NCBI GenBank assembly: GCA_003193925.1 | Contig: PSPG01000005.1 | Location: forward strand, 1,645-65,644 | DNA length: 64,000 nt | Direction of reading: 5' to 3' | Origin: Candidatus Thalassarchaeum betae | GTDB taxonomy: Archaea; Thermoplasmatota; Poseidoniia; Poseidoniales; Thalassarchaeaceae | In this document: piece by piece, positions 3,965 to 16,460 of the stretch | Layout: each line of letters begins with the position of its first letter | Position numbering within the stretch: the first letter of the stretch is position 1 | Made by a program: the position numbers and the translations under genes | Notes under the pieces: model-generated | The model's input: only the letters and a program-made list of their open reading frames with translations | Told to the model about the DNA's origin: nothing | The model's database searches: none

Positions 3965-4675
3965 TCACTGACCTATGAGGTCGAACAGGAGGAGGTAGCC
4001 TTGGTCGCTCCGGCCCTCGATTTCGACCTCGCCGCCCTCGACGATGTAGGCACCGTCGCCCGGCCCGTAGGCCTCCCCGTTCACAACGGCAGTGCCCTTC
4101 GCGACATGGAGGTACCCGACGCGCCCGGCGGCTATCATGTGGGACGCCTGGCTTTCATTGGTGAATGCGCCGCCGTACAGGTAGGCATCCTGATGGATAC
4201 GAAGCGCGCGCTCACCGCCCTCCGGGCTGACTAGGCAGGGCAGGGATTCTCCGATGAGGGGGTCAGCCTGCACCTGCTGGTAGCTCATCGGCAGGCCGTT
4301 CTCGTCGGGGCGTATCCAGATCTGGAGTAACTCCGTGGTTTCGTCCTCGAGGTGGTTCATCTCGGAATGGACGACGCCGATCCCGGCGGACATGATCTGG
4401 ATCTCGCCGGGCCGTATGACGCTGTGCGTCCCGCTGCTGTCCTCGTGCTCGATTGCGCCCGAGAGGACGATGGAGACGATTTCCATGTTGTCGTGGCCGT
4501 GTGCACCGAAGCCCCTGCCTCCCTCGATGCGGTCTTGATTCAACACCCGGAGGGGACCGATGCCGAGGTGGTGGGGCTCGTACCAGCGCGCGAACGAGAA
4601 GGAGTGGTACGCGTCGAGCCACCCGTGGTCGACATGGCCACGTTCGGCCGAGGGGTGGGGGACGAGGACGGTCAT
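3965..4675 (-). CDS. Pirin family protein
   Basis: 236 residues, bicupin. The N-terminal cupin contains the pirin signature: HSFSFARWYEPHHLGIGPLRVLNQDRI, then GFGAHGHDNMEIV, and HSEMN further on, providing the His/His/His/Glu metal site of pirins and YhhW-type quercetin 2,3-dioxygenases. The C-terminal cupin ends VEIEGRSDQGYLLLFDLIGQ. Some bacterial homologues cleave flavonols in vitro; the physiological substrate here is unknown. It is divergent from the six-gene operon starting at 4788, and the 112-base gap holds promoters for both. Confidence 0.92.
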   Translation of the reverse strand: MTVLVPHPSAERGHVDHGWLDAYHSFSFARWYEPHHLGIGPLRVLNQDRIEGGRGFGAHGHDNMEIVSIVLSGAIEHEDSSGTHSVIRPGEIQIMSAGIGVVHSEMNHLEDETTELLQIWIRPDENGLPMSYQQVQADPLIGESLPCLVSPEGGERALRIHQDAYLYGGAFTNESQASHMIAAGRVGYLHVAKGTAVVNGEAYGPGDGAYIVEGGEVEIEGRSDQGYLLLFDLIGQ

Positions 4676-4787: not shown

Positions 4788-5510
4788 ATGGCCAAGCCGA
4801 GATTCGCATATTTGCTCCTGAAGGAGCACCCGTACGGCCGCGAGATGTTGCGGCAGATCCTCTCAGGGGGCTTCGTGCCGCAAATCATAATCGAGGAGGA
4901 CTCGGTGGTCGGCGACGAGGAGCGTGAGAAGTTCCTCAAGCGCATCGAGGGCAACCCGATAGCACCCTCGATCGCTGAACAAGCCGCCGAAAACGGCATC
5001 CCGCTCGTCACCGTCCCGATCCACAACTCGCCCGAGGTGATGCCTCACCTCGAAGGCATGGAGCTCGACCTCATCGTCTTCGGTGGCACCCGAATCATCC
5101 GTGGCGAAATTCTCGACTACCCCAAGGACGGGGTCATCAACGCGCATCCGGGTTTTCTCCCCGATTGCAGGGGCTCGGCCTCACCCGCGTGGTCGGTCTA
5201 CCACGACATCAGGATCGGCTCGACGTGCCACTTCTGCGACAACGGCATAGACACCGGCGAGATGCTGCTAAGGCGCGAAGTCCCGGTGAAGAGGGGCATG
5301 ACGTACGAGGATCTGTGCTACGAAACACTGGCTCTGGCTGGAGTCTTGATGAAGGAGGCATTGATGGCATACGAGGACGGCCGATGGGACGAGATGCGCC
5401 GACCACAAGGTGATAGCGAGCACCCTACCTTCCGCAATGCGTCGGATGAGGTGCTCGAGGTGGTTTACCAGAAACTTGGCGACCAGACATACGCTCATTA
5501 CGTGGATTAG
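4788..5510 (+). CDS. Formyltransferase-fold protein (Fmt/PurN-like)
   Basis: 240 residues. The formyl-transferase N-terminal domain is clear: GVINAHPGFLPDCRGSASPA, with catalytic Asn118 and His120, and IGSTCHFCDNGIDTGEML with Asp155, the Asn-His-Asp triad spaced as in Fmt and PurN. There is no C-terminal tRNA-binding domain of the Fmt type, and archaeal initiator tRNA is not formylated, so a small-molecule N-formyltransferase acting with formyl-tetrahydrofolate is more likely. First gene of an operon with an SDR, a flavin monooxygenase, an amidase-like enzyme, an aldehyde dehydrogenase and a KAS III. Confidence 0.85.
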   Translation: MAKPRFAYLLLKEHPYGREMLRQILSGGFVPQIIIEEDSVVGDEEREKFLKRIEGNPIAPSIAEQAAENGIPLVTVPIHNSPEVMPHLEGMELDLIVFGGTRIIRGEILDYPKDGVINAHPGFLPDCRGSASPAWSVYHDIRIGSTCHFCDNGIDTGEMLLRREVPVKRGMTYEDLCYETLALAGVLMKEALMAYEDGRWDEMRRPQGDSEHPTFRNASDEVLEVVYQKLGDQTYAHYVD

Positions 5511-5518
5511 GTGAGAAA

Positions 5519-6319
5519 ATGACAAATGAACTGCTCAGTGACGGATTTCCCTTCGCTGATGGCGTCCTGGACGGACGGACTGCTCTGGTTTGCGGTGCCT
5601 CGAAGGGCATCGGGCGGGCTTGCGCGCTGATGCTCGCTCGCGCAGGCGCTCGGGTGGTCGCCTGCGCGCGCTCCGCAGACGCTCTCGACTCGCTGGTCGC
5701 TGAAATGCACGGAGAGGGCCACGAGGCCGTGGCTCTCGACCTCGAGGACGTGGATGCGGTGCGCGAGGCCGTCGCCAGTCTCGGTACGATACACATTCTA
5801 TTGAACAACTCAGGGGGCCCTCCCGGTGGACCTCTGCTGGAGAATACACTGGAGGATTTCGAAGGTCCGTTTCGGCGCCACCTTCACGCAGCTCACACCA
5901 TCACGCAAGCCCTGGTTCCCGGGATGGAAGAGGCTGGGACCGGGCGCATCGTCAACATCATCTCGACCTCAGTGCGCGAGCCGATCGACAACATCGGACT
6001 TTCCAACACGCTGCGCGGGGCGATGGCCTCGTGGGCCAAGTCGCTGTCACGCGAGCTGCCCCCCTGCGTGACCATCAACAACATCATGCCGGGGTTCACC
6101 GACACCGACCGGCTGGGCTCGCTGGCCGCATCGATCTCGGAGCACACGGGCAAGCCCGTCGAGGACGTTCGCGACGATTGGATGAGCGGGGTGCCCATCC
6201 AGCGTCTCATCGACCCCCTGGAGACCGCTGCTGCGGTCACTTGGCTCTGCTTGCCCAGCAGTGGCGCTGTTCGCGGCATCAGTCTGGCAGTCGATGGCGG
6301 GAGAATGCGTTCAATTTGA
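5519..6319 (+). CDS. SDR-family protein with atypical active site
   Basis: 266 residues, FabG-like. The Rossmann loop CGASKGIG and the NNSGGPPGGP segment are intact, and the C-terminus ends in the usual VDGG. The catalytic YxxxK is missing: the aligned segment reads LSNTLRGAM, placing Ser162 at the tyrosine and Arg166 at the lysine. A known SDR subgroup related to beta-ketoacyl-ACP reductase shows the same change, so it may not be an ordinary reductase. GGTGAG eight bases before the ATG gives a good start. It follows the formyltransferase by eight bases and precedes the monooxygenase by 14. Confidence 0.85.
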   Translation: MTNELLSDGFPFADGVLDGRTALVCGASKGIGRACALMLARAGARVVACARSADALDSLVAEMHGEGHEAVALDLEDVDAVREAVASLGTIHILLNNSGGPPGGPLLENTLEDFEGPFRRHLHAAHTITQALVPGMEEAGTGRIVNIISTSVREPIDNIGLSNTLRGAMASWAKSLSRELPPCVTINNIMPGFTDTDRLGSLAASISEHTGKPVEDVRDDWMSGVPIQRLIDPLETAAAVTWLCLPSSGAVRGISLAVDGGRMRSI

Positions 6320-6333
6320 ATGGGGGTCCCGCT

Positions 6334-7575
6334 GTGCGGTTCGACATCTTCTTCTCGATCTCGCAGACCCCGGACACCTCCGGCTACACCCCTTCCGAAA
6401 GCGAGATGTTCGCCGGCTTCTTCGATCAGGTCGAGCTCGCCGACGAACTGGGGTTCGGTGTCGGTTGGGTCGCTCAGGCCCACCTCTCCACCGAGGTCCA
6501 GAAGCGCAACAACGAGCCTGTGGTCCCTCACTTCCCCGGCGAGGTCGGGCTGTGCACCGATTTCTTCCAGGTCGCTCAGACCATGTTCGCGCGCACCGAG
6601 CGAATGGAGGTCGGCAGCGCGGTGATGTCCATCCTAGGCTCGGGCGGTCCGATCGCGCAAGCCGAGCGCGTCGGGGCGTTCCTCGCCCTGCACGGCCTCG
6701 ACCCGTCTGAGTCCCGCCGTCTGCACGTAGGATTCTCAGCCGGCCGCTTCGAGTTCATGGCGCGCCCCTATGGCATCGTTCCGCGCGACGTGGTCGAGGA
6801 GGCAGCATGGCCGGCCCTGCGCGGCCAGATCTTCGCAGAAGCCTCTGAGATTTTCCTGCGCCTGCTGAACGGCGAGGTCATCTCCAGCGACATGATTCGG
6901 CCCACGGTCCTGACCCGAGCCAACTTCCGCTCGGACGAAGATTGGGGGAGAGTACAGCTGGCCGCGGTCGAATGCCGGGGCCTCGATGTGGCACCCGACG
7001 AGGTGCCCATCGATCCAAGGTATTCGTTTGAGGAGATCAAGACGATCCCGCAGGAGTGGCGCCGAGAGTTGCTCAACCTCGTGCTGGGCAGCCACGACTC
7101 GAAGCTACAGGCCGAGGTGAACAAGCTGAGGCCGGTCCAAGTGTTCAATCTCAGCATCACGCCGCCTCACATCATCGAACAGACCCATGACAGGTTCAGG
7201 GAGCACTACCACCCTGATGGAGGCCCATGGGAGCGCAGCATGATGCCGCGCACCATCATGGTCTTCGTCAACGACGAGGAGGGGCTCACTCCAGACGAGC
7301 AGGATGCTGCAGCGATGGAGGAGGCGAAAGCCGCGCTTTCGACCTACTGGAGCGCTTTGGAGGGTACGATTGACCCCGCCAAGGTCGAGCGGGCGACGGA
7401 CAATGCTGTGATCGGCAACGTCGAGCGTGTCGGCCAGCAGATTCTCGAGAGATTCCATCCCGACGACCGCCTGATGTGCTGGTTCGACTTCTTCAACCAC
7501 GACAGCGAGCGCGTCAAGAGGAACATGACGGCGTTCATGACCAAGGTCGCACCGCGTGTCAACGGAGGCGCCTGA
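6334..7575 (+). CDS. Luciferase-like (LLM) flavin monooxygenase
   Basis: 413 residues. N-terminal MRFDIFFSISQTP, then FFDQVELADELGFGVGWVAQAHL, a long conserved core with QAERVGAFLALHGLDP and RLHVGFSAGRFEFMARPYGI, and a C-terminal helix with NVERVGQQILERFHPDDRLMCWFDF: the bacterial-luciferase-like TIM barrel that uses reduced FMN and oxygen. No in-frame ATG exists near the family N-terminus. GTG at 6334, preceded by GGGGGT, is the chosen start. Known relatives oxidise aldehydes, alkanesulfonates or open N-heterocyclic rings; the substrate here is unknown. Middle gene of the operon. Confidence 0.88.
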   Translation: MRFDIFFSISQTPDTSGYTPSESEMFAGFFDQVELADELGFGVGWVAQAHLSTEVQKRNNEPVVPHFPGEVGLCTDFFQVAQTMFARTERMEVGSAVMSILGSGGPIAQAERVGAFLALHGLDPSESRRLHVGFSAGRFEFMARPYGIVPRDVVEEAAWPALRGQIFAEASEIFLRLLNGEVISSDMIRPTVLTRANFRSDEDWGRVQLAAVECRGLDVAPDEVPIDPRYSFEEIKTIPQEWRRELLNLVLGSHDSKLQAEVNKLRPVQVFNLSITPPHIIEQTHDRFREHYHPDGGPWERSMMPRTIMVFVNDEEGLTPDEQDAAAMEEAKAALSTYWSALEGTIDPAKVERATDNAVIGNVERVGQQILERFHPDDRLMCWFDFFNHDSERVKRNMTAFMTKVAPRVNGGA

Positions 7576-7576
7576 G

Positions 7577-8764
7577 ATGAGCGAGGACGACAGCGGCCGG
7601 CCATCCAGCGTGACCCCCGGCAGACCGGGCTCGGCCATCTACCCGACAAACCCACTGGGCGAGCAGCATGAGGGCATCGCCACCGGGCGTGACGTCGAGT
7701 GGGAGCCGTTGGTCGACTTCCGTCGCATGGACATCTCCGAGAACACCATCCACGGCGCCATCTCTTGGGCCCACGGCACCGAGATCGTCCACTCCTTCGG
7801 CGGTAACGTGCTGATCTACGGGCGCTCGATGATGAAACCGCTGATGATGAAGACCTTCCAAGAGGCGCTGGCCGCAGAGAGCTTGAGCTGGGAGCAGAAG
7901 GCCATCGCCTGCTCCTCGCACAACGGCGACACCGAGCACGTGGCTGCCGCGCAATCGCTTCTGACCGAATCCGAATGGGGGCTGATGCAGTGCCCCCTCG
8001 ACGTCCCGCTCATCCAATTCGGCCGTCAGGTCAGACGTCCCCGCCGCTGGTTCCACACCTGCTCGGGAGAGCACGCGGCGATGCTCAAGGCGCTGCGCAG
8101 GATGGGAATAAACCGGGCTGGTTACACCCTTCCGAGCGCGCCTTGGTTCCCGATGTACCTCGATGTGCTTCGCCGGATTATGGACAAGCCAGACTGGGAG
8201 CCACAGAGGGTGGCCAAGGACGGATGCGGGCTGCCGACCGTCTCGAACACAGTGGACGAGCTCGCAGTGATGTTCGCCGGCCTCGTCCGGGAGAAGGACG
8301 AGGATTGGATCTGGGAGGCGATGAACAGGCACCCGGACCTGATTGGCGGCTTCAACAGACTCGACTCGACTTGCCTGAAGGCGGGCGACGGGCAGTTGCT
8401 CGCGAAGGAGGGCGCGGACGGCCTGCTCGGTCTCTCGATCATACACCCCGACTGGCCGAACGGGCTCGGCATCGTCATCAAGATCGCACATGGCTGGAAC
8501 AGCCAAGCGACCTGGTACGTCGCACGTGCGGTCCTAGGAGTGCTGGGAATCCACCTGCGCAACCCCTACCCGCTCTATCGCCAGAAGGCGTTCATCGTCC
8601 CGGGGATAGTGCCGCCGCAGTATCTCGACGAGCTCGAGGGCGTCGTCACATGGGACGAGTGGGACCCCGACAGAGACCGCTTCACGCTAGACTGGAAGGA
8701 GTACTCCACGGCGATGACCAGGGCGGACCCGTTCTCCAATGAGGGCTCCGAGATGGAGGACTGA
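7577..8764 (+). CDS. L-asparaginase II family amidohydrolase
   Basis: 395 residues. Asparaginase II (PF06089) hallmarks are YGRSMMKPLMMKTF, IACSSHNGDTEHVAAAQSLL, FHTCSGEHAAMLKALRRMG and KDGCGLPTVSNTVDELA. The family resembles plant/rhizobial asparaginase rather than the bacterial type I/II enzymes. A canonical member would hydrolyse asparagine to aspartate and ammonia, but in this catabolic context another amide may be the substrate. The start at 7577 lies one base after the monooxygenase stop, with GGAGGCG upstream; an ATG at 7556 would overlap the previous gene. Confidence 0.88.
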   Translation: MSEDDSGRPSSVTPGRPGSAIYPTNPLGEQHEGIATGRDVEWEPLVDFRRMDISENTIHGAISWAHGTEIVHSFGGNVLIYGRSMMKPLMMKTFQEALAAESLSWEQKAIACSSHNGDTEHVAAAQSLLTESEWGLMQCPLDVPLIQFGRQVRRPRRWFHTCSGEHAAMLKALRRMGINRAGYTLPSAPWFPMYLDVLRRIMDKPDWEPQRVAKDGCGLPTVSNTVDELAVMFAGLVREKDEDWIWEAMNRHPDLIGGFNRLDSTCLKAGDGQLLAKEGADGLLGLSIIHPDWPNGLGIVIKIAHGWNSQATWYVARAVLGVLGIHLRNPYPLYRQKAFIVPGIVPPQYLDELEGVVTWDEWDPDRDRFTLDWKEYSTAMTRADPFSNEGSEMED

Positions 8765-8765
8765 C

Positions 8766-10205
8766 ATGGACGACCTGCGCAACTACATCGGTGGGCAGTT
8801 CGTCGCTCACTCCAGTAGCCAGTGGCTGGACAACCTCGAACCCGCGACGGGCTCGCACATCTGCCGCGTACCGCTGTCCGATGCGTCCGACATCGACGCT
8901 GCCGTCGCTGCCGCTCGCGCCGCCCAGCCCGCCTGGGGCGCGCTGAGCCACTCCGAGCGTGCCGACTGGCTGGACCGCATCGCTGACGCGCTCGAAGCGC
9001 GCTACGAGGAGGTCGCCACGCTGGAGAGTCGCGACACCGGCAAGCCGATCACCCTCGCCCGAGGGGTGGACGCCCACCGCTCGGTGTCCAACTTTCGCTT
9101 CTTCGCCGGGATGCTGCGCGAGCACGAGCACGAGATCTTCGAGATGGCGAACGCGACCAACTACGTCATCAACAAGCCGGTGGGGGTCGGTGCTCTGATC
9201 ACCCCGTGGAACCTACCACTCTACCTGCTCTCTTGGAAGGTGGCTCCCGCCATCGGCATGGGTAACACCGTGGTGTGCAAGCCAAGCGAACTGACCCCGC
9301 TGACCGCTGACCTGCTGATGCGGGTCATAGACGAGGTCAGCCTGCCTGCCGGCGTGGTCAACCTCGTCCACGGCGACGGCGCGGGCGCTGGCGCGCCTCT
9401 GGTCGCCGACTCTGACGTCGACCTAGTATCATTCACCGGCGGGACGGCCACCGGGGAGAAGGTGGCGGCATCGGCCGCTCCGGCTTTCAAGAAACTCAGC
9501 CTCGAGCTCGGCGGCAAGAACTCGAGCATCGTCTTCGCCGACTGCGACATGGAATCCACTGTGGCAGGGGTCGTGCGCGCGGGCTTCCTGAACCAGGGCC
9601 AAGTCTGCCTGTGCGGCTCTAGAGTGCTGGTGGAGGACTCAGCCTACGACGAGTTCCGAGACCGCTTCGTCGAAGCCGTCGAGGAGATGCGAATCGGTGA
9701 CCCCTCTGACGAAGCCACCGACCTCGGCGCACTCATCTCCGAGTCTCACCTCGCCAAGGTGCAGGGCTACGTCGAACTGGCAAAGCGGGAGGGCGGGGCC
9801 CTGCTGACCGGAGGCACGTCCTGTGTACCATCCGGCTTCGAGGGCGGCAACTGGATGGCCCCCACGGTCATCGAGGGCCTGAGCCCGGACTCGCGCTGCG
9901 CCACCGAGGAGATCTTCGGGCCGGTCGTCACGATTCACCCGTTCAGCAGTGAGGACGAGGCGGTGGCCATCGCCAACAACACCCGATACGGACTGGCCGG
10001 AAGCGTCTGGACGAGTGACCTCGACAAGGGCAGGAGGGTCTCCGAGGCCATCGACACCGGGATGGTCTGGGTCAACACCTGGCTCCACCGGGACCTGCGC
10101 GTCCCGTTCGGTGGCGTCAAGGACAGCGGAGTGGGCCGTGAGGGCGGCAAATGGAGCCTGGGATTCTTCTCCGAGGCCATGAACGTCTGTGTCAAGCACG
10201 ACTGA
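8766..10205 (+). CDS. Aldehyde dehydrogenase, muconic-semialdehyde type
   Basis: 479 residues, NAD(P)-dependent aldehyde dehydrogenase. The cofactor-binding VCKPSELTPLTA and FTGGTATGEK are present, with general base Glu247 (LELGGKNSS) and nucleophile Cys281 (NQGQVCLCG). The segments GQVCLCGSRVLVEDSAYDEF, DLGALISESHLAKVQGYV and PFGGVKDSGVGREGG are closest, from memory, to 2-aminomuconic/2-hydroxymuconic semialdehyde dehydrogenase (ALDH8A1, XylG/DmpC). That points to oxidation of a ring-cleavage semialdehyde, but no ring-cleavage dioxygenase is in the window. GGAGG precedes the ATG, one base after the previous stop. Confidence 0.88.
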   Translation: MDDLRNYIGGQFVAHSSSQWLDNLEPATGSHICRVPLSDASDIDAAVAAARAAQPAWGALSHSERADWLDRIADALEARYEEVATLESRDTGKPITLARGVDAHRSVSNFRFFAGMLREHEHEIFEMANATNYVINKPVGVGALITPWNLPLYLLSWKVAPAIGMGNTVVCKPSELTPLTADLLMRVIDEVSLPAGVVNLVHGDGAGAGAPLVADSDVDLVSFTGGTATGEKVAASAAPAFKKLSLELGGKNSSIVFADCDMESTVAGVVRAGFLNQGQVCLCGSRVLVEDSAYDEFRDRFVEAVEEMRIGDPSDEATDLGALISESHLAKVQGYVELAKREGGALLTGGTSCVPSGFEGGNWMAPTVIEGLSPDSRCATEEIFGPVVTIHPFSSEDEAVAIANNTRYGLAGSVWTSDLDKGRRVSEAIDTGMVWVNTWLHRDLRVPFGGVKDSGVGREGGKWSLGFFSEAMNVCVKHD

Positions 10206-10248
10206 TGCAGCAAGAGTGAAAGTCCGCTCTTGGGCGAAGCGGTCCAGC

Positions 10249-11229
10249 ATGGCACCTGCGGGCATCGTCGGCTTGGGCGCATACGTGCCCCCCAAGGTCA
10301 TGACCAACGACGACTGGGCTGAGATCTTAGACACCAGCGACGAGTGGATCGCCGCCAAGACCGGGATCAAGGAGCGCAGGATCGCCGCGGAAGACGTCTG
10401 CACCAGCGACCTCGCGGTCGTCGCCTGCGAGCAGGCCATGGACGAAGCCGGGATCGGACCCGAGGATGTTGACATGCTCATCCTCGCTACCTCCTCACCC
10501 GACGTGCCACTCTCCTCGACAGCCGGCATCACACAGCACAAGCTCGGCTGCCCCAAGGCGGCGGCATTCGACATCAACGCGGTGTGCGCCGGCTGGGTAC
10601 AAGCGCTCGACGTCGGCGCGCGCTTCGCGGGCACCCCGGGATACGACAACGTGCTGGTCGTGGGCGCCGAGGTCTACAGCCGAATACTCAACTGGGAGGA
10701 TCGCACGACGTGCGTCCTCTTCGGCGACGGTGCCGGGGCAGCGGTCCTGCAGGAGGTGGGCGAAGACAGGGGCCTGCTCGGAAGCTGGATGATGTCCGAC
10801 GGCGCCGGAGCTGAGGTCATCGTGATCCCGGCGGGCGGAGTCAAGAAGCCGATTCCGTCCCCGGGCTTCGAGGACGGGGACCAGTACTTCCACATGGATG
10901 GGCCTGCTGTGTGGGACTTCGCCACCGAGGCTTTCCCTCAGGCGGTTCGTGGCGTTCTCGAGCGGGTCGGTCACTCACTGGACGACGTCGCCCTGATCAT
11001 CGCGCATCAGGCCAATCTGAACATCATCAAGGCGGGTATGGAGAATCTCGGGCTGCCGATGGAAAAGACGTTCACGAACCTGCACAAGTACGGCAACACC
11101 GCCGGCGCCAGTGTGCCCATCGCTTTGCGTGAGGCGCGCGATGAGGGACTGATAGAATCGGGGGACCTAGTTGTCACAGTGGCCTTCGGCGGCGGCCTAG
11201 CCTGGGGTGCAAATGCGATTATCTGGTGA
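10249..11229 (+). CDS. fabH: 3-oxoacyl-ACP synthase III (KAS III)
   Basis: 326 residues, the usual KAS III length. The catalytic triad is complete: Cys113 (VCAGWVQ), His253 (IIAHQANLNI) and Asn283 (KYGNTAGAS). The N-terminus AGIVGLGAYVPPKVMTN and TSDEWIAAKTGIKERRI are typical FabH. It performs a Claisen condensation between an acyl-CoA and malonyl-ACP, or another starter condensation. Bacterial-type FabH is unusual in archaea. Last gene of the operon, 43 bases after the dehydrogenase; the ATG at 10249 matches the family start better than 10189, which overlaps the upstream gene. Confidence 0.9.
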   Translation: MAPAGIVGLGAYVPPKVMTNDDWAEILDTSDEWIAAKTGIKERRIAAEDVCTSDLAVVACEQAMDEAGIGPEDVDMLILATSSPDVPLSSTAGITQHKLGCPKAAAFDINAVCAGWVQALDVGARFAGTPGYDNVLVVGAEVYSRILNWEDRTTCVLFGDGAGAAVLQEVGEDRGLLGSWMMSDGAGAEVIVIPAGGVKKPIPSPGFEDGDQYFHMDGPAVWDFATEAFPQAVRGVLERVGHSLDDVALIIAHQANLNIIKAGMENLGLPMEKTFTNLHKYGNTAGASVPIALREARDEGLIESGDLVVTVAFGGGLAWGANAIIW

Positions 11230-11312: not shown

Positions 11313-11504
11313 ATGCCTCAGGGTACAGTAAAGTGGTTTAACAGAGTAAAAGGATTCGGATTCATAGAACAGGAAGACGGTGAGGACCTCTTCGTTCACA
11401 AGACTGCGGTCGAGGGGACGATCGCGGATGGCGACGCCGTCGAGTTCGAAGTCGGCGAGGGGCCGAAGGGACCCAATGCCGTCAACGTCCGTAAAGTAGA
11501 GTGA
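11313..11504 (+). CDS. csp: Cold shock domain protein
   Basis: 63 residues, a single OB-fold cold shock domain. It begins [20 protein letters not shown] with the nucleic-acid motifs KGFGFI (RNP1) and DLFVH (RNP2), and ends at the domain boundary. Such proteins bind single-stranded RNA/DNA and melt structures at low temperature. They are common in bacteria and patchy in archaea. It is monocistronic and is followed at once by a pair of hairpins shared with the convergent giant gene. ATG 11313 is chosen because the six residues of the longer frame precede the family start. Confidence 0.95.
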
Positions 11505-11544: not shown

Positions 11545-14500
11545 CTACTCGAGGGGCTTCCATGAACCGGTGGCCGCATCGAAGGTCATGACGCTTCCAT
11601 CCGGGTCCTGGGCGAAGACCGTGCCCGAGTCGTCGACCCAGACCAACTGGCCCTGCTCGTTCAGTTTAGCGTGGGCCGGCGCCGAAGACCGCTCGAGCTC
11701 CTCCTCCAGCTCCTGGAGGAACTGGTCGGTATCGGCAGTCTCCTCCGTCATCGGCTCGGTTTCCTCCATGGGCTCCGACTCCTGCATCGCCCGAGAATCA
11801 GCGGCCACGCTCTCGGTGTGCTCTGCGGCCTCGGTGATGGTCGGAGTGTCCTTGCGGCGCATCGCCATCCAGCCTCCGAGGCCCAGCACGAGAATGACGG
11901 CCAGAGCCCCGAACACGAATCCGTATTTCCCGAGCAGATCCTCCTCGAGGTGCTTTGTGGCGTCGTGGGGAAAGGCGTCGCCGTTGTCGCCGTAGCCGTC
12001 CCCGTCGGAGTCGGCCCACTCGGCGGCGTCGGTAGGGAACGCGTCGAGCGCGTCGTTGAAGCCGTCGTCGTCGGTGTCGGTGTCCTTCGGGTTGGTCCCC
12101 AGCTCGGCCTCCTGGGCGTCGGTGAGCCCGTCGTTGTCGTCATCGGGGTCCTCGTTGTCGCCCAGCCCGTCCATGTCGTTGTCGTACCACTCCTCGGGGT
12201 CGAACGGCAGGGCGTCGGCGTCGTCCGGGAAGCCGTCGTTGTCATCATCCGCATCCTCATCAGTATCCTTGCAACCGTCAGCGTCGTTGTCCGAGCCGGG
12301 GCTGCTGGACCATCCCATCAGGCCCAGAGGGCACAGGTCCATCCCGTCATCGATGCCGTCTCCGTCGTCGTCTGAGTCGACGACGTCGTGAGTCCTGTCT
12401 CCGTCGGTGTCCAGGTAGCAGTCGTCCTCTGAGTCGGCACCCACCTGCAGCGTGATATGGCTCTCCGGGCAGTTCTCCACGCTGCTGCTGCCGGTTCCTA
12501 CGGCATATGTGTCCAGGGGTGCTGGCAACTGCTCGGCCTGGCCCTCGTCGGGCACGTAGTGACCGAGCATCGCCTCCGAGCATGAGAGTTGGCCCACTGC
12601 AGACTGGTAGGCGCCCGGGCTGCAGGGTGTCTGTTCTGAACTGGCTTGGCCGTCGACGTAGTGCCCTGCGTCCGCGGCCAAGCAGCCGGCGGCACTGCCC
12701 GAGGCTGTGGACGGGTTGTAGGTCCCTGCGGGGCAGGGGGACTGGGAGGTCGAGCCGCTGTAGGTGACGAAGTACCCCGGGTCCGAGTCAAGGCAGGTGG
12801 TCTGGCCTGAGTTCGGCTGGTAGGTACCGGGAGCGCACTCGATCTGGTCGGCTAGGCCCGCGATGTCGGAGTAATGGCCGGGGCCGACGTCGATGCAGTC
12901 ATCGCGGTCGCCGGAGCCAGTCGCTGGATTGTACGTAGTTGGAGGGCACGGAGTCTGTGATGCCGAGCCATTGCTGTCGACGTAGTTGCCGGGCTCGGCG
13001 TCCAGACAACTGGAGGCGCCCGTATCAGGTTGGAAGGTCCCCAACTGGCACTGGGCTTGAGTGGTCGATTCCATGGCGGGGACGAAGTGACCCGGATCGG
13101 CATCGAGGCAGGAGTCCTGGCCGGTGATGGGCTGGTAGGTGCCCTCTGCGCATCCCGACTGCGAGGACATGCCCTCCGTCGAGGTGTAGTGGCCTGCGTC
13201 CGTGGAGACGCAGTTGGCGAGCGACGAGGCCCCGGAGTTCGGGTTGTAAGTCCCGGGCCGACAAGCCGTCTGCTGAGTCGCCCCGGTGCTGTCGACATAG
13301 TATCCGGGCGCGGCATCCATGCAGGCACTCTGAGCCGTGTCCGGGTTGTACGTCCCAAGGCTGCACGGAGTCTGTGCAGTCGCCCCTCCTGAGTCCACGT
13401 AGTTACCGGTGTCGGCGTCGAGGCACGAAGTCTGACCGGAGCCCGGCTGGTAGTGGCCAGTCGTGCACGGCGTCTGGTAAGACGAGCCCCCCATTGGCAC
13501 AGAGTTCCCGGGGTCTGCGGGCAGGCAGGCATCGGAACTGGAGGAGCCGGTCAGGGGATTGTAGGTCCCAGGCACGCAGGGAGTGGGCGATGTGGCCGCT
13601 GTGCTGTCGACATAGTAGCCGGCAGGCGAGTCGATGCACGAGGATGAGCCGTAGTTAGGCTGGAACGTCCCTATGTCGCACGCTGTCTGGTTGGCGGAGC
13701 CGGTGCTGCCGACATAGTAGCCTGGGTCTGCCAGATCGCATCTGTCCTGCCCAGCCAGTGGCTGGTAGGAGCCGATATCGCACGGAGTCTGGGTCGTGGA
13801 AGCCACGGTGTTGACGTAGTATCCGGGTGATGCGTTTAGGCAGAAGGATTGCCCCGTATTAGGCTGGTAGGTTCCAATGGGGCATGCCGTCTGGCTAGTT
13901 GAGTTGTAGTACAGGACGAAGTGTCCGGCCGATGCGTCGATGCAAGATGCCTGTCCGGTTGAGGGCTGGTAGGTGCCCGGGCTGCACGCCGTCTGGAAGG
14001 TCGCGGCAGTTGAGTCAACGTAGTAGCCGGCGTCGGCGTCGATGCATGAGGTCTGTCCGGTGTTGGGCTGATAGGTGCCTGTACTGCACGCAACGTCGTC
14101 GGTCGCCCCGGTGGTGTTGACGTAGTGCCCTGCGGCGGCGGGAGTCTGGTCTATGGCTGCAGACGTGTCAACGTAGTTCCCGAGGCTCGCCAGCAGGCAT
14201 GAGGACTGGGCCGTGATTGGCTGGAAACTTCCCGGGCTGCACTCAGTCTGGGTGGTGGAGCCGATGTCAGGCACGTAGTGTCCGGGAGATGCTTCTACGC
14301 ACGAGGATTGGTTGGAATAGGGTTGGTAGGTTCCCTCTGAGCACTGGTACTGCCCGGCACCAATCTCAACATCCACCGCCATCGAGGGGTTGCCGACGAC
14401 GGCTCCGTCAGCGGTGGAGAACAGCCAGACCTGCAGAGTGTACTGGCCTGTCCCGTTCCAAGGTGCGACCAGGATGTACAGGTCCGAGCTGGAGGAGAAG

Positions 14501-16416
14501 TTCGTGTTGTTGGTCGAGGTCTCGTCGTATGCCGTGGAGTAGCTGTAGTTCAGCAGGGTCAGGTTGTAGTCATAGATAGCGAGGTCGAAGTCGGCTCCAG
14601 TGGGGGAGGTCAGGCCCACGGCCACCCCCGAGTCCTTCGGTACTGACATCACGAACAGGTCCTGCACGTCACTGTTCGAATCGATGGATCCGTTATACTC
14701 GGCACTGTTGGCTGAGATGTTGAAGGCCGACGAGGAATAAGACCCGGCATCGCCGAAACTCGGGTTTGTGTAGTTGCCAGGTGAGCTGTCAACGCAGGAG
14801 GTCTGGCCCAAATTGGGCTGATAGGTGCCTGCAGAGCACAACGTCTGAGCGGTAGCCTGAGCGGAGGAGACGTAGTTTCCCGCCGATGCTGAGTAGCACA
14901 GTGGATAGCCCGACTCGGGTTGGTATGTCCCTGTCTGGCAAGGCTGGTGATACAAGGCACCCGACACAGCGAAGTGCCCGGGCTCAGCCTCGGTGCAAGT
15001 CAGTCGGCCCCATGAGCCGAGCTCGCAGTTCATCCACCTCGCTGGGTTGCTGGGATAGGGGTCGTCGGGCACGGGGACGCCGTCGCCATCGTCATCGCCT
15101 GACATGTGCGTGTCCAACGCATTCCGGGTGCCATCGCCGTCCATGTCCTGGTCTGAGTAGGCGATATCGGCGCCGTCTGCGAAGTTCATCGTATGCGGGA
15201 GCAGTATGTTGCCTGAGGTGCCGGTGAACTCACCTGACTGCTGGCCCCAGCATTGCAGCGAGTAGTTATCGAGGATCGCGCATGTCGCACCTGCTCCTGC
15301 GGAGAGGGCGATGGCGCTGCTGCCAGTGCTGAGGTTCACGTGCACGGGAGTGTTGCCGTTGTCTCCGTCACACCCGCTGGAGGGGATGACCGAACTGCAC
15401 GAGCCGTCGCCCCACTGGCCGTACGTGTTGACCCCCCAGCAGTTCATCGAGCCGTTGTCCAGTATCGCGCAGGTGTGGTCAGAGGTCCCGTCGATGGCGA
15501 CTGCGGTCCTGCCAGCGGCGAAGTCGATATGGACAGAACCGTTTGTGACAGTCCCAAACATCGCGGTGACTGTGTAGGACTGACCCCAGCAGTACACGGA
15601 GCCGTTCTCGAAGATAGCGCAGGCGCCGTATCCCGGTGTGGCTATGGCGACGGCTCGCATTCCTGTTGAGTGATTGACCTCTACTGGCACATTGCTGTGG
15701 ATGGTGGTCCCGTCCCCGAGAACTCCGTAGAAGTTGCCCCCCCAGCACTTGATTGCGCCGGTGTTCGTTACCGCGCACGTGGAATCGATTCCAGCTGAGA
15801 GGGCTACAGCAGTGGTGTTGGTTCCTAGGTCAACGCTCACAGGTGCGTTCCTGTTTGCATTGGAACCGTCCCCGAGCTGCCCGACGTTGTTCCTTCCCCA
15901 GCACATGACTGAGCCGTCGTCCAGTATCGCGCAATTGTGGGTGTTACCGTCCGAGATCGCAGCGGCCATCCTGTCGCCGAGATCGACTGTGCCGTTGCTC
16001 AGTGAGAAGGAGCCCAGACCGAGCTGTCCGTAGTTGTTGACCCCTGTGCATCGGAGGCTGTAGTTGTCGAGTATCGCGCAAGAGCCCGCAATTGACACGA
16101 TGTCATCGGCGGTATAGACCGGGTTGCTGCTGTTGTTTGTAGAAGCGAAGGTGACGCGGGTGCCGTTGTCCAGCACTAAGGTAGGAGAGCCTGAGTTGAG
16201 TTCGAAGACGGAGTTGGAGAATACCGATCCCCTTTCCGAGCCGGCCTGGTTCAACGTGCTCGGGCCGCCGGGGGTGTCGGCTCGTCCGGGGGTGTCATCG
16301 AGTTCGGGCGGCTCGACTGTCGAGGCCACGAATGCCGAGGCGGACACACCGAGGAAGAGCAAGCATATCGAGGCGGCCACGAGTCGGTTGGCCGGAGTTT
16401 GTTTTCGTACTCGCAT
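11545..16416 (-). CDS. Giant surface protein: RCC1, cysteine-repeat and TSP3 domains
   Basis: About 1,620 residues, exported and anchored. In order: signal peptide (NRLVAASICLLFLGVSASAF); RCC1-type propeller repeats to about residue 450 (CAILDDGSVMCWGRNNVGQL); a PPC-like beta domain near 560-675; a run of about 18 cysteine modules on both sides of it (GTYQPNTGQTSC form, GCC2/GCC3-like); thrombospondin type 3 acidic repeats (DDDGDGIDDGMDLCP) near 1315-1485; a membrane helix (FGALAVILVLGLGGWMAM); and a cytoplasmic tail ending DAATGSWKPLE. Likely a calcium-binding adhesin or environmental-interaction protein; the role is unknown. ATG 16416 begins the signal peptide neatly, but ATG 16437 and TTG 16452 are also in frame. 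Confidence 0.85.
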   Translation of the reverse strand: MRVRKQTPANRLVAASICLLFLGVSASAFVASTVEPPELDDTPGRADTPGGPSTLNQAGSERGSVFSNSVFELNSGSPTLVLDNGTRVTFASTNNSSNPVYTADDIVSIAGSCAILDNYSLRCTGVNNYGQLGLGSFSLSNGTVDLGDRMAAAISDGNTHNCAILDDGSVMCWGRNNVGQLGDGSNANRNAPVSVDLGTNTTAVALSAGIDSTCAVTNTGAIKCWGGNFYGVLGDGTTIHSNVPVEVNHSTGMRAVAIATPGYGACAIFENGSVYCWGQSYTVTAMFGTVTNGSVHIDFAAGRTAVAIDGTSDHTCAILDNGSMNCWGVNTYGQWGDGSCSSVIPSSGCDGDNGNTPVHVNLSTGSSAIALSAGAGATCAILDNYSLQCWGQQSGEFTGTSGNILLPHTMNFADGADIAYSDQDMDGDGTRNALDTHMSGDDDGDGVPVPDDPYPSNPARWMNCELGSWGRLTCTEAEPGHFAVSGALYHQPCQTGTYQPESGYPLCYSASAGNYVSSAQATAQTLCSAGTYQPNLGQTSCVDSSPGNYTNPSFGDAGSYSSSAFNISANSAEYNGSIDSNSDVQDLFVMSVPKDSGVAVGLTSPTGADFDLAIYDYNLTLLNYSYSTAYDETSTNNTNFSSSSDLYILVAPWNGTGQYTLQVWLFSTADGAVVGNPSMAVDVEIGAGQYQCSEGTYQPYSNQSSCVEASPGHYVPDIGSTTQTECSPGSFQPITAQSSCLLASLGNYVDTSAAIDQTPAAAGHYVNTTGATDDVACSTGTYQPNTGQTSCIDADAGYYVDSTAATFQTACSPGTYQPSTGQASCIDASAGHFVLYYNSTSQTACPIGTYQPNTGQSFCLNASPGYYVNTVASTTQTPCDIGSYQPLAGQDRCDLADPGYYVGSTGSANQTACDIGTFQPNYGSSSCIDSPAGYYVDSTAATSPTPCVPGTYNPLTGSSSSDACLPADPGNSVPMGGSSYQTPCTTGHYQPGSGQTSCLDADTGNYVDSGGATAQTPCSLGTYNPDTAQSACMDAAPGYYVDSTGATQQTACRPGTYNPNSGASSLANCVSTDAGHYTSTEGMSSQSGCAEGTYQPITGQDSCLDADPGHFVPAMESTTQAQCQLGTFQPDTGASSCLDAEPGNYVDSNGSASQTPCPPTTYNPATGSGDRDDCIDVGPGHYSDIAGLADQIECAPGTYQPNSGQTTCLDSDPGYFVTYSGSTSQSPCPAGTYNPSTASGSAAGCLAADAGHYVDGQASSEQTPCSPGAYQSAVGQLSCSEAMLGHYVPDEGQAEQLPAPLDTYAVGTGSSSVENCPESHITLQVGADSEDDCYLDTDGDRTHDVVDSDDDGDGIDDGMDLCPLGLMGWSSSPGSDNDADGCKDTDEDADDDNDGFPDDADALPFDPEEWYDNDMDGLGDNEDPDDDNDGLTDAQEAELGTNPKDTDTDDDGFNDALDAFPTDAAEWADSDGDGYGDNGDAFPHDATKHLEEDLLGKYGFVFGALAVILVLGLGGWMAMRRKDTPTITEAAEHTESVAADSRAMQESEPMEETEPMTEETADTDQFLQELEEELERSSAPAHAKLNEQGQLVWVDDSGTVFAQDPDGSVMTFDAATGSWKPLE

Positions 16417-16460
16417 TCGCCCGCCTCGCTGTCCCATTGCAGTTCCAACCAAAGAGATTC

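Follow-up and report, generated by a model that had tools for sequence, protein, structure and literature searches.

The window analysed here is a 64,000-nucleotide stretch from Candidatus Thalassarchaeum betae, an archaeon of the order Poseidoniales (Marine Group II), and corresponds to positions 1,645 to 65,644 of contig PSPG01000005.1 (forward strand; assembly GCA_003193925.1, 1.48 Mb in 23 contigs, 92% complete). It carries a six-gene operon at positions 4788-11229. We propose, with a probability of about two in three, that this operon encodes upper and middle steps of a tryptophan catabolism that proceeds via 2-aminophenol and not via anthranilate or 3-hydroxyanthranilate, in which a luciferase-like flavin monooxygenase (LLM) would perform a Baeyer-Villiger oxidation and a class-3-asparaginase-like hydrolase (ASN) would hydrolyse the product. 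The assignment of the gene set and the end points of the pathway are strongly supported at the sequence level. Our verdict is that the operon belongs to a genuine, widely distributed form of tryptophan catabolism that apparently has yet to be described and of which we infer the two central reactions.

The six open reading frames all lie on the plus strand with intergenic gaps of 8, 14, 1, 1 and 43 bases, in agreement with an earlier note on this DNA that had described a six-gene operon with gaps of 1-43 bases; its coordinates hold except for the start of the last gene. The genes are as follows:

4788-5510, plus strand: FT, a formyltransferase-fold protein (PF00551), proposed N-formylkynurenine deformylase with tetrahydrofolate (THF) or water as the acceptor
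5519-6319, plus strand: SDR, an atypical short-chain dehydrogenase-fold protein (PF00106), perhaps an FMN reductase for LLM
6334-7575 (GTG start), plus strand: LLM, a luciferase-like flavin monooxygenase (PF00296), proposed to carry out type II Baeyer-Villiger oxidation of kynurenine
7577-8764, plus strand: ASN, a class-3-asparaginase-like hydrolase (PF06089), proposed to release 2-aminophenol from a beta-aspartyl ester or anilide
8766-10205, plus strand: ALDH, by homology an AmnC-like 2-aminomuconate-6-semialdehyde dehydrogenase (PF00171)
10249-11229 (ATG at 10249 chosen as start), plus strand: KAS III, a FabH-like protein (PF08545/PF08541), a rider outside the conserved core

Conservation and spread of the gene cluster

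LLM is present in 138 of the 145 genomes of Poseidoniales. Gene order was examined in 40 loci covering both families of the order, and SDR, LLM, ASN and ALDH keep their order and strand in these loci except for three in which SDR is relocated; the FT-SDR-LLM-ASN-ALDH order is found in 28 of them. The recurrence of this gene order is far beyond chance. The earlier note had allowed that the genes might be scattered in close relatives, and we found them syntenic throughout the order and between phyla. An alpha/beta-hydrolase of about 250 residues with an HGGFW motif occupies the position of FT in nine of the 40 loci and never occurs together with it. In many Poseidoniales, SDR and LLM are separated by the gene for a TPR-repeat protein of about 270-300 residues (e.g. 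positions 7725-8564 of locus L049), which the window lacks.

A one-genome-per-species scan returned 386 relatives of LLM, and the analysis continued with the best 80. An SDR-LLM-ASN-ALDH block with about 45-72% identity to the window was found in bacterial and archaeal contigs labelled Planctomycetota, Myxococcota, Acidobacteria, Deltaproteobacteria, Latescibacterota, Krumholzibacteriota and Thermoplasmata, and also in Marine Group III (MGIII). Co-occurrence in archaea and bacteria, which had been suggested earlier as a check, is seen for these four genes in MGIII and several bacterial phyla. Clustering of neighbouring genes added tryptophan 2,3-dioxygenase (TDO), two LigB-fold proteins, RidA and a KynB-type formamidase to the cluster. 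The full TDO-SDR-LLM-ASN-ALDH-LigA-LigB-RidA-formamidase order is present in loci from several bacterial phyla (L075, L076, L086, L094, L100, L108 and L125), and the MGIII loci (L117, L120, L138, L141 and L146) show TDO-SDR-LLM-ASN-ALDH-LigA-LigB-RidA followed by FT instead of the formamidase. In addition, TDO adjoins LLM in about 25 loci outside Poseidoniales, and LLM, ASN and ALDH overlap by a few bases in several bacteria (e.g. L110).

The pairwise distances of SDR, LLM, ASN, ALDH and LigA correlate with each other (r = 0.58-0.81, 41 loci), as expected of co-inherited genes, and a shared species history gives the same result. In the phylum of locus L092, LLM with at least 64% identity occurs in 4 of 195 genomes (a fifth genome has one at 41%), LigA is found in the same four genomes and ASN in three of them. 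Were the genomes independent, LigA would fall in exactly these four of 195 with a chance of about 2e-8. Related genomes are not independent, and LLM had pointed to three of the four beforehand. Two isolated cases were also observed. A contig titled as a metagenome-assembled genome (MAG) of Klebsiella pneumoniae (L089) carries SDR-LLM-ALDH, and its species label is probably wrong. Searches among plasmids yielded one lone LLM, with 49% identity, on the Streptomyces clavuligerus megaplasmid pCLA1 (L071, 14001-15245), and no partner genes of LLM were found in the 29 kb read around it.

End points of the pathway and the kynureninase gap

Outside the operon, the window genome encodes TDO (PF03301) on contig C1 (L190, 7749-8828), whose match to TIGR03036 is below the cut-off of that model, and a LigA-LigB-RidA operon on contig C21 (L189, 6834-9286). 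Of 140 Poseidoniales genomes, 134 carry TDO and 129 carry LigB-fold proteins; none of the 33 genomes with a completeness of 90% or more lacks the latter. LigA is nearest to the beta subunit of 2-aminophenol 1,6-dioxygenase (8ihg_A, E = 2e-103) and LigB to the alpha subunit (7txy_A, E = 3e-41), both far above other extradiol enzymes. Residues H14, H63, H196 and E252 of LigA are invariant in 47 sequences, H14, H63 and E252 being of the iron-ligand type. The RidA-family protein (PF01042) lies beside LigB, and its family does not tell the substrate. The earlier note had named a muconic-semialdehyde-type dehydrogenase, and the closest solved relatives of ALDH are indeed 2-aminomuconate 6-semialdehyde dehydrogenases (AMSDHs), which are its top PDB matches with E values down to 2e-138; its score against TIGR03216 is 560 bits, under the cut-off of 693. 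Equivalents of R120, N169, E268, C302 and R464, including the catalytic cysteine and glutamate, are invariant in 100 ALDH sequences, and R120 and R464 of AMSDH bind the 2-amino-carboxylate end of the substrate (PMC4286809).

The earlier note had read the operon as flavin-dependent ring opening followed by amide hydrolysis and semialdehyde oxidation, the logic of some N-heterocycle or tryptophan-derivative degradation routes. Our proposal retains an oxygenation by a flavin enzyme, the hydrolytic cleavage of an aspartyl bond and the oxidation of a semialdehyde. Ring opening by LLM was dropped upon finding 2-aminophenol 1,6-dioxygenase, the predicted ring opener, which is encoded elsewhere in the genome.

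Between TDO, which starts the route, and 2-aminophenol dioxygenase at its lower end, some enzyme should convert kynurenine to 2-aminophenol. Kynureninase (TIGR01814) gave no match in the window genome and was above the cut-off in 3 of 58 LLM-bearing genomes, among them 1 of 20 Poseidoniales. Since kynureninase is nearly always missing, kynurenine would reach 2-aminophenol by another way, and the conserved genes left over for this gap are SDR, LLM and ASN. We reasoned that if ASN takes the role of kynureninase, the two should substitute for each other between genomes. An ASN orthologue with at least 60% identity was found in 12 of 18 LLM genomes searched; those without one are L087, L095, L097 and three actinomycetes. 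All four ASN-lacking genomes tested gave a full-length kynureninase match, with scores of 216-398 bits that in two cases exceed the curated cut-off of 246, and among the other 54 genomes tested, one was above the cut-off (G013). The full kynureninase of this Poseidoniales genome lies at 6088-7329 of L198 (contig C29), the GC content of the contig matches, and both routes may coexist there.

The upstream deformylation step appears to be served by different proteins in different lineages. The Asn-His-Asp triad of formyltransferases (N118, H120 and D155 in FT) is invariant in 54 of 54 orthologues. FT orthologues with 52-59% identity were found in MGIII genomes, and bacteria and four Poseidoniales genomes without the cluster FT gave only distant Fmt-like matches. 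The KynB-type family PF04199 was found in none of the 20 Poseidoniales and five MGIII genomes and in 30 of the 33 other genomes tested; the KynB-type enzyme scores 194 bits against TIGR03035, whose cut-off is 223. The HGGFW motif of the alpha/beta-hydrolase is one known from animal and yeast kynurenine formamidase. In the simplest reading of these sequences, FT, the HGGFW hydrolase and KynB would be three unrelated proteins serving as alternatives for the one step of deformylation. In Amycolatopsis antarctica (L074, 7200-11250), LLM has as neighbours a TDO-like gene and the gene for an alpha/beta-hydrolase that is a relative of the Poseidoniales HGGFW hydrolase.

Proposed central reactions and their alternatives

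In the proposed route, TDO would convert tryptophan to N-formylkynurenine (step 1) and FT would take off the formyl group to yield kynurenine, possibly with formyl transfer to THF (step 2). Kynurenine is an aryl alkyl ketone whose ring is electron-rich, and LLM, using reduced FMN that may be supplied by SDR, would insert an oxygen between this ring and the side-chain carbonyl (step 3). This would yield the beta-(2-aminophenyl) ester of aspartate, and a rearrangement of the ester to N4-(2-hydroxyphenyl)asparagine is possible. The serine of ASN would then attack the beta-carbonyl of aspartate to release L-aspartate and 2-aminophenol (step 4). LigA/LigB would open the ring of 2-aminophenol to give 2-aminomuconate semialdehyde (step 5), ALDH would oxidise this to 2-aminomuconate (step 6), and RidA would deaminate it to 4-oxalocrotonate (step 7). 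Strong homology supports the predicted steps 1, 5 and 6; we infer steps 3 and 4 as well as the order of the deformylation, LLM and ASN reactions, the role of SDR, the formyl transfer to THF and the substrate of RidA.

The structural model of LLM (pLDDT 91.6) aligns best with luciferases (8cbb and 1luc, Z about 30; 30.4 for 8cbb) and also with type II Baeyer-Villiger monooxygenases (BVMOs; 5aec and 4uwm, Z about 26; for 5aec, Z 26.0 over 323 residues with an rmsd of 4.0). The luciferase family includes proven type II BVMOs (PMC4631483). The fold alone is no proof of such an activity in LLM, which would follow from pathway logic. F420-dependent enzymes are compatible in fold (Z about 24), and use of F420 by LLM seems unlikely because the module occurs in many bacteria. 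In SDR, S162-N163-x-x-R166 replaces YxxxK in 105-106 of 106 sequences and the catalytic tyrosine and lysine are gone, so the protein is atypical as the earlier note had said. SDR is predicted by motif to bind NAD(P), and its gene mostly lies directly upstream of LLM. Because a search for PF01613 flavin reductases gave none in the window genome or in six cluster-bearing bacteria, with other reductase families not searched, a role of SDR as the flavin reductase for LLM is a reasonable guess.

The roles of the Ser-Lys residues of class 3 asparaginases have been described (PMC8602277, PMC12292245); in ReAV, Ser48 attacks the beta-carbonyl of asparagine to form a beta-acyl enzyme and Arg47 holds the alpha-carboxylate (PMC12292245). 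Equivalents of R47, S48, K51, S80 and K263 are conserved in 102 ASN sequences. The zinc site (Cys135-Lys138-Cys189) reads C/E/C in 93 and S/Q/D in 8 of these, and position 138 is never lysine. By analogy, the beta-(2-aminophenyl) ester of aspartate would be an expected substrate for a class 3 asparaginase.

Several observations weigh against the proposed route. Actinomycetes and two Planctomycetota-type loci have LLM but no ASN, and one Poseidoniales genome carries both kynureninase and LLM. The fold of LLM fits other FMN- and F420-dependent enzymes of the luciferase family too. The decarboxylase, hydratase, aldolase and acetaldehyde dehydrogenase of a lower path were found in none of the loci read, and no genome-wide search for them was made.

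Two alternatives retain the conversion of tryptophan to 2-aminophenol. LLM might act on N-formylkynurenine, with the formamidase, hydrolase or FT working last on N-formyl-2-aminophenol. This variant is compatible with the chemistry proposed above, TDO, LLM and the deformylases cluster together, and gene order is silent on the order of steps; we nevertheless consider it unlikely, since KynB-type enzymes are known as kynurenine formamidases and a free amino group favours aryl migration. A little less probable again is removal of the side chain in another manner, in which LLM acts as a hydroxylase of the ring or of the carbon that carries it, ASN acts as a kynureninase-like C-C hydrolase, or SDR performs the cleavage. 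The identical gene set fits, the conserved SDR has an unexplained role, and other acyl-transfer chemistry is possible given the resemblance of PF06089 enzymes to beta-lactamases and glutaminases (PMC8602277). As a C-C hydrolase, however, a serine enzyme must expel an aryl carbanion, whereas prior oxygen insertion gives a phenol leaving group, and the catalytic set of ASN belongs to a beta-aspartyl acyl-enzyme.

The remaining alternatives abandon tryptophan or catabolism altogether. LigA, LigB, ALDH and RidA make up the known 2-aminophenol meta-cleavage set, and the genes might form a 2-aminophenol/catechol operon fed by another aromatic compound, with TDO as a mere neighbour and LLM and ASN processing an external amide. 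We regard this as improbable given the recurrent adjacency of TDO and LLM outside Poseidoniales, the near ubiquity of TDO within the order and the kynurenine-type formamidases in the same clusters. The earlier note had also taken the formyltransferase and the condensing enzyme to point to assembly. KAS III is FabH-like (333 bits against TIGR00747, above the cut-off), carries a conserved Cys-His-Asn set as judged by eye and begins 43 bases after ALDH, but it follows ALDH in only 14 of the 40 Poseidoniales loci, all of one family, is missing from the other 26 and was found in no bacterial or MGIII locus inspected. FT, for its part, is swapped for hydrolases and sits where formamidases sit elsewhere. 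A six-gene biosynthetic module using the two enzymes therefore has only a very slight chance of being correct. KAS III is a rider confined to part of one family, and its narrow spread ruled it out as a core enzyme.

Other genes flank the operon in the window. A pirin/quercetinase-type cupin protein is encoded divergently from it (3965-4675, minus strand), and a cold-shock-like short frame lies immediately 3' of KAS III (11314-11504) and is 92% alike in a same-genus genome. A cysteine-rich repeat protein of 1635 residues (11545-16452, minus strand), which has aspartate repeats of the calcium-binding type and a membrane anchor at its C-terminus, adjoins the operon in relatives too.

Relation to known systems

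The earlier note knew of no described pathway with this gene set, and we found none published: Pfam and NCBIfam gave families only, and no description of the route was found in the open literature on kynurenine, 2-aminophenol and Poseidoniales, subscription journals and preprints being outside its scope. A homologous cluster of known function, raised earlier as a possibility, exists only for the lower half, that is, 2-aminophenol meta-cleavage. The archaea of Marine Groups II and III are an abundant part of the ocean plankton, and their use of dissolved organic matter is argued from genomes; we know of no cultures. We give somewhat better than even odds to a kynureninase-free route, built on Baeyer-Villiger oxidation by LLM and on ASN, that is core to Marine Group II, occurs in MGIII and many bacterial phyla and is a candidate source of 2-aminophenol for the ARO microcompartment. 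If this is true, Marine Group II and III would have a concrete source of carbon and nitrogen in a nearly universal, complete route of tryptophan degradation; the route would also be a further way of kynurenine breakdown and provide the asparaginase-like family with a physiological substrate. Three unrelated enzymes would interchange at one of its steps, and it would be a candidate for the origin of 2-aminophenol in bacteria not exposed to nitrobenzene.

The ARO microcompartment of Actinobacteria, with Micromonosporales and Pseudonocardiales among its hosts, shares a 2-aminophenol dioxygenase and a semialdehyde dehydrogenase with the present system, whereas LLM, TDO and asparaginase are not mentioned for it (PMC10470539). 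The same 2023 study stated the precursor of 2-aminophenol as unknown and mentioned neither tryptophan nor kynurenine (PMC10470539). Actinomycete relatives of LLM (46-50% identity) adjoin TDO or tryptophan synthase together with microcompartment shell genes; this neighbourhood makes a link to the ARO microcompartment worth testing and is no proof of it. Loci of a Pseudonocardia MAG (L114, 3985-15000) and Paractinoplanes pyxinae (L224, 14363-19483, with L073) carry LLM, TrpA/TrpB, microcompartment shell proteins, an ornithine-cyclodeaminase-like protein, PPDK/PEP-utiliser-like proteins and a HAD hydrolase, with TDO in Paractinoplanes, and possibly represent a tryptophan-related microcompartment. 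They are not called ARO loci here, as no LigA lies within the DNA read.

Both the 2-aminophenol meta-cleavage pathway of nitrobenzene- and aminophenol-degrading Proteobacteria (AmnAB, AmnC and AmnD) and the present system have the subunits of a ring-cleaving dioxygenase and a semialdehyde dehydrogenase, and the deaminase-like RidA found here is a candidate counterpart of AmnD. The 2-aminophenol of the former comes from nitrobenzene or uptake, whereas here it is predicted to come from tryptophan via kynurenine, with LLM and ASN upstream. Known kynurenine pathways likewise start with TDO and a deformylase and have 2-aminomuconate semialdehyde dehydrogenase in common with it, but here nearly all genomes lack kynureninase, and the predicted products are aspartate and 2-aminophenol rather than alanine and anthranilate or 3-hydroxyanthranilate. 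LLM resembles 3,6-diketocamphane monooxygenase, a type II BVMO, and bacterial luciferase in its luciferase fold and FMN type; it differs in sequence (14% identity in the structural alignment) and in its predicted substrate, an aryl alkyl ketone amino acid. ASN shares PF06089, both Ser-Lys pairs and the Arg47 and Asp187 equivalents with the class 3 L-asparaginases ReAV and ReAIV. Its sequences are 60-90% alike among pathway members and distant from these enzymes (E = 1.6e-16), with the zinc ligand Lys138 replaced by Glu or Gln and a larger leaving group predicted.

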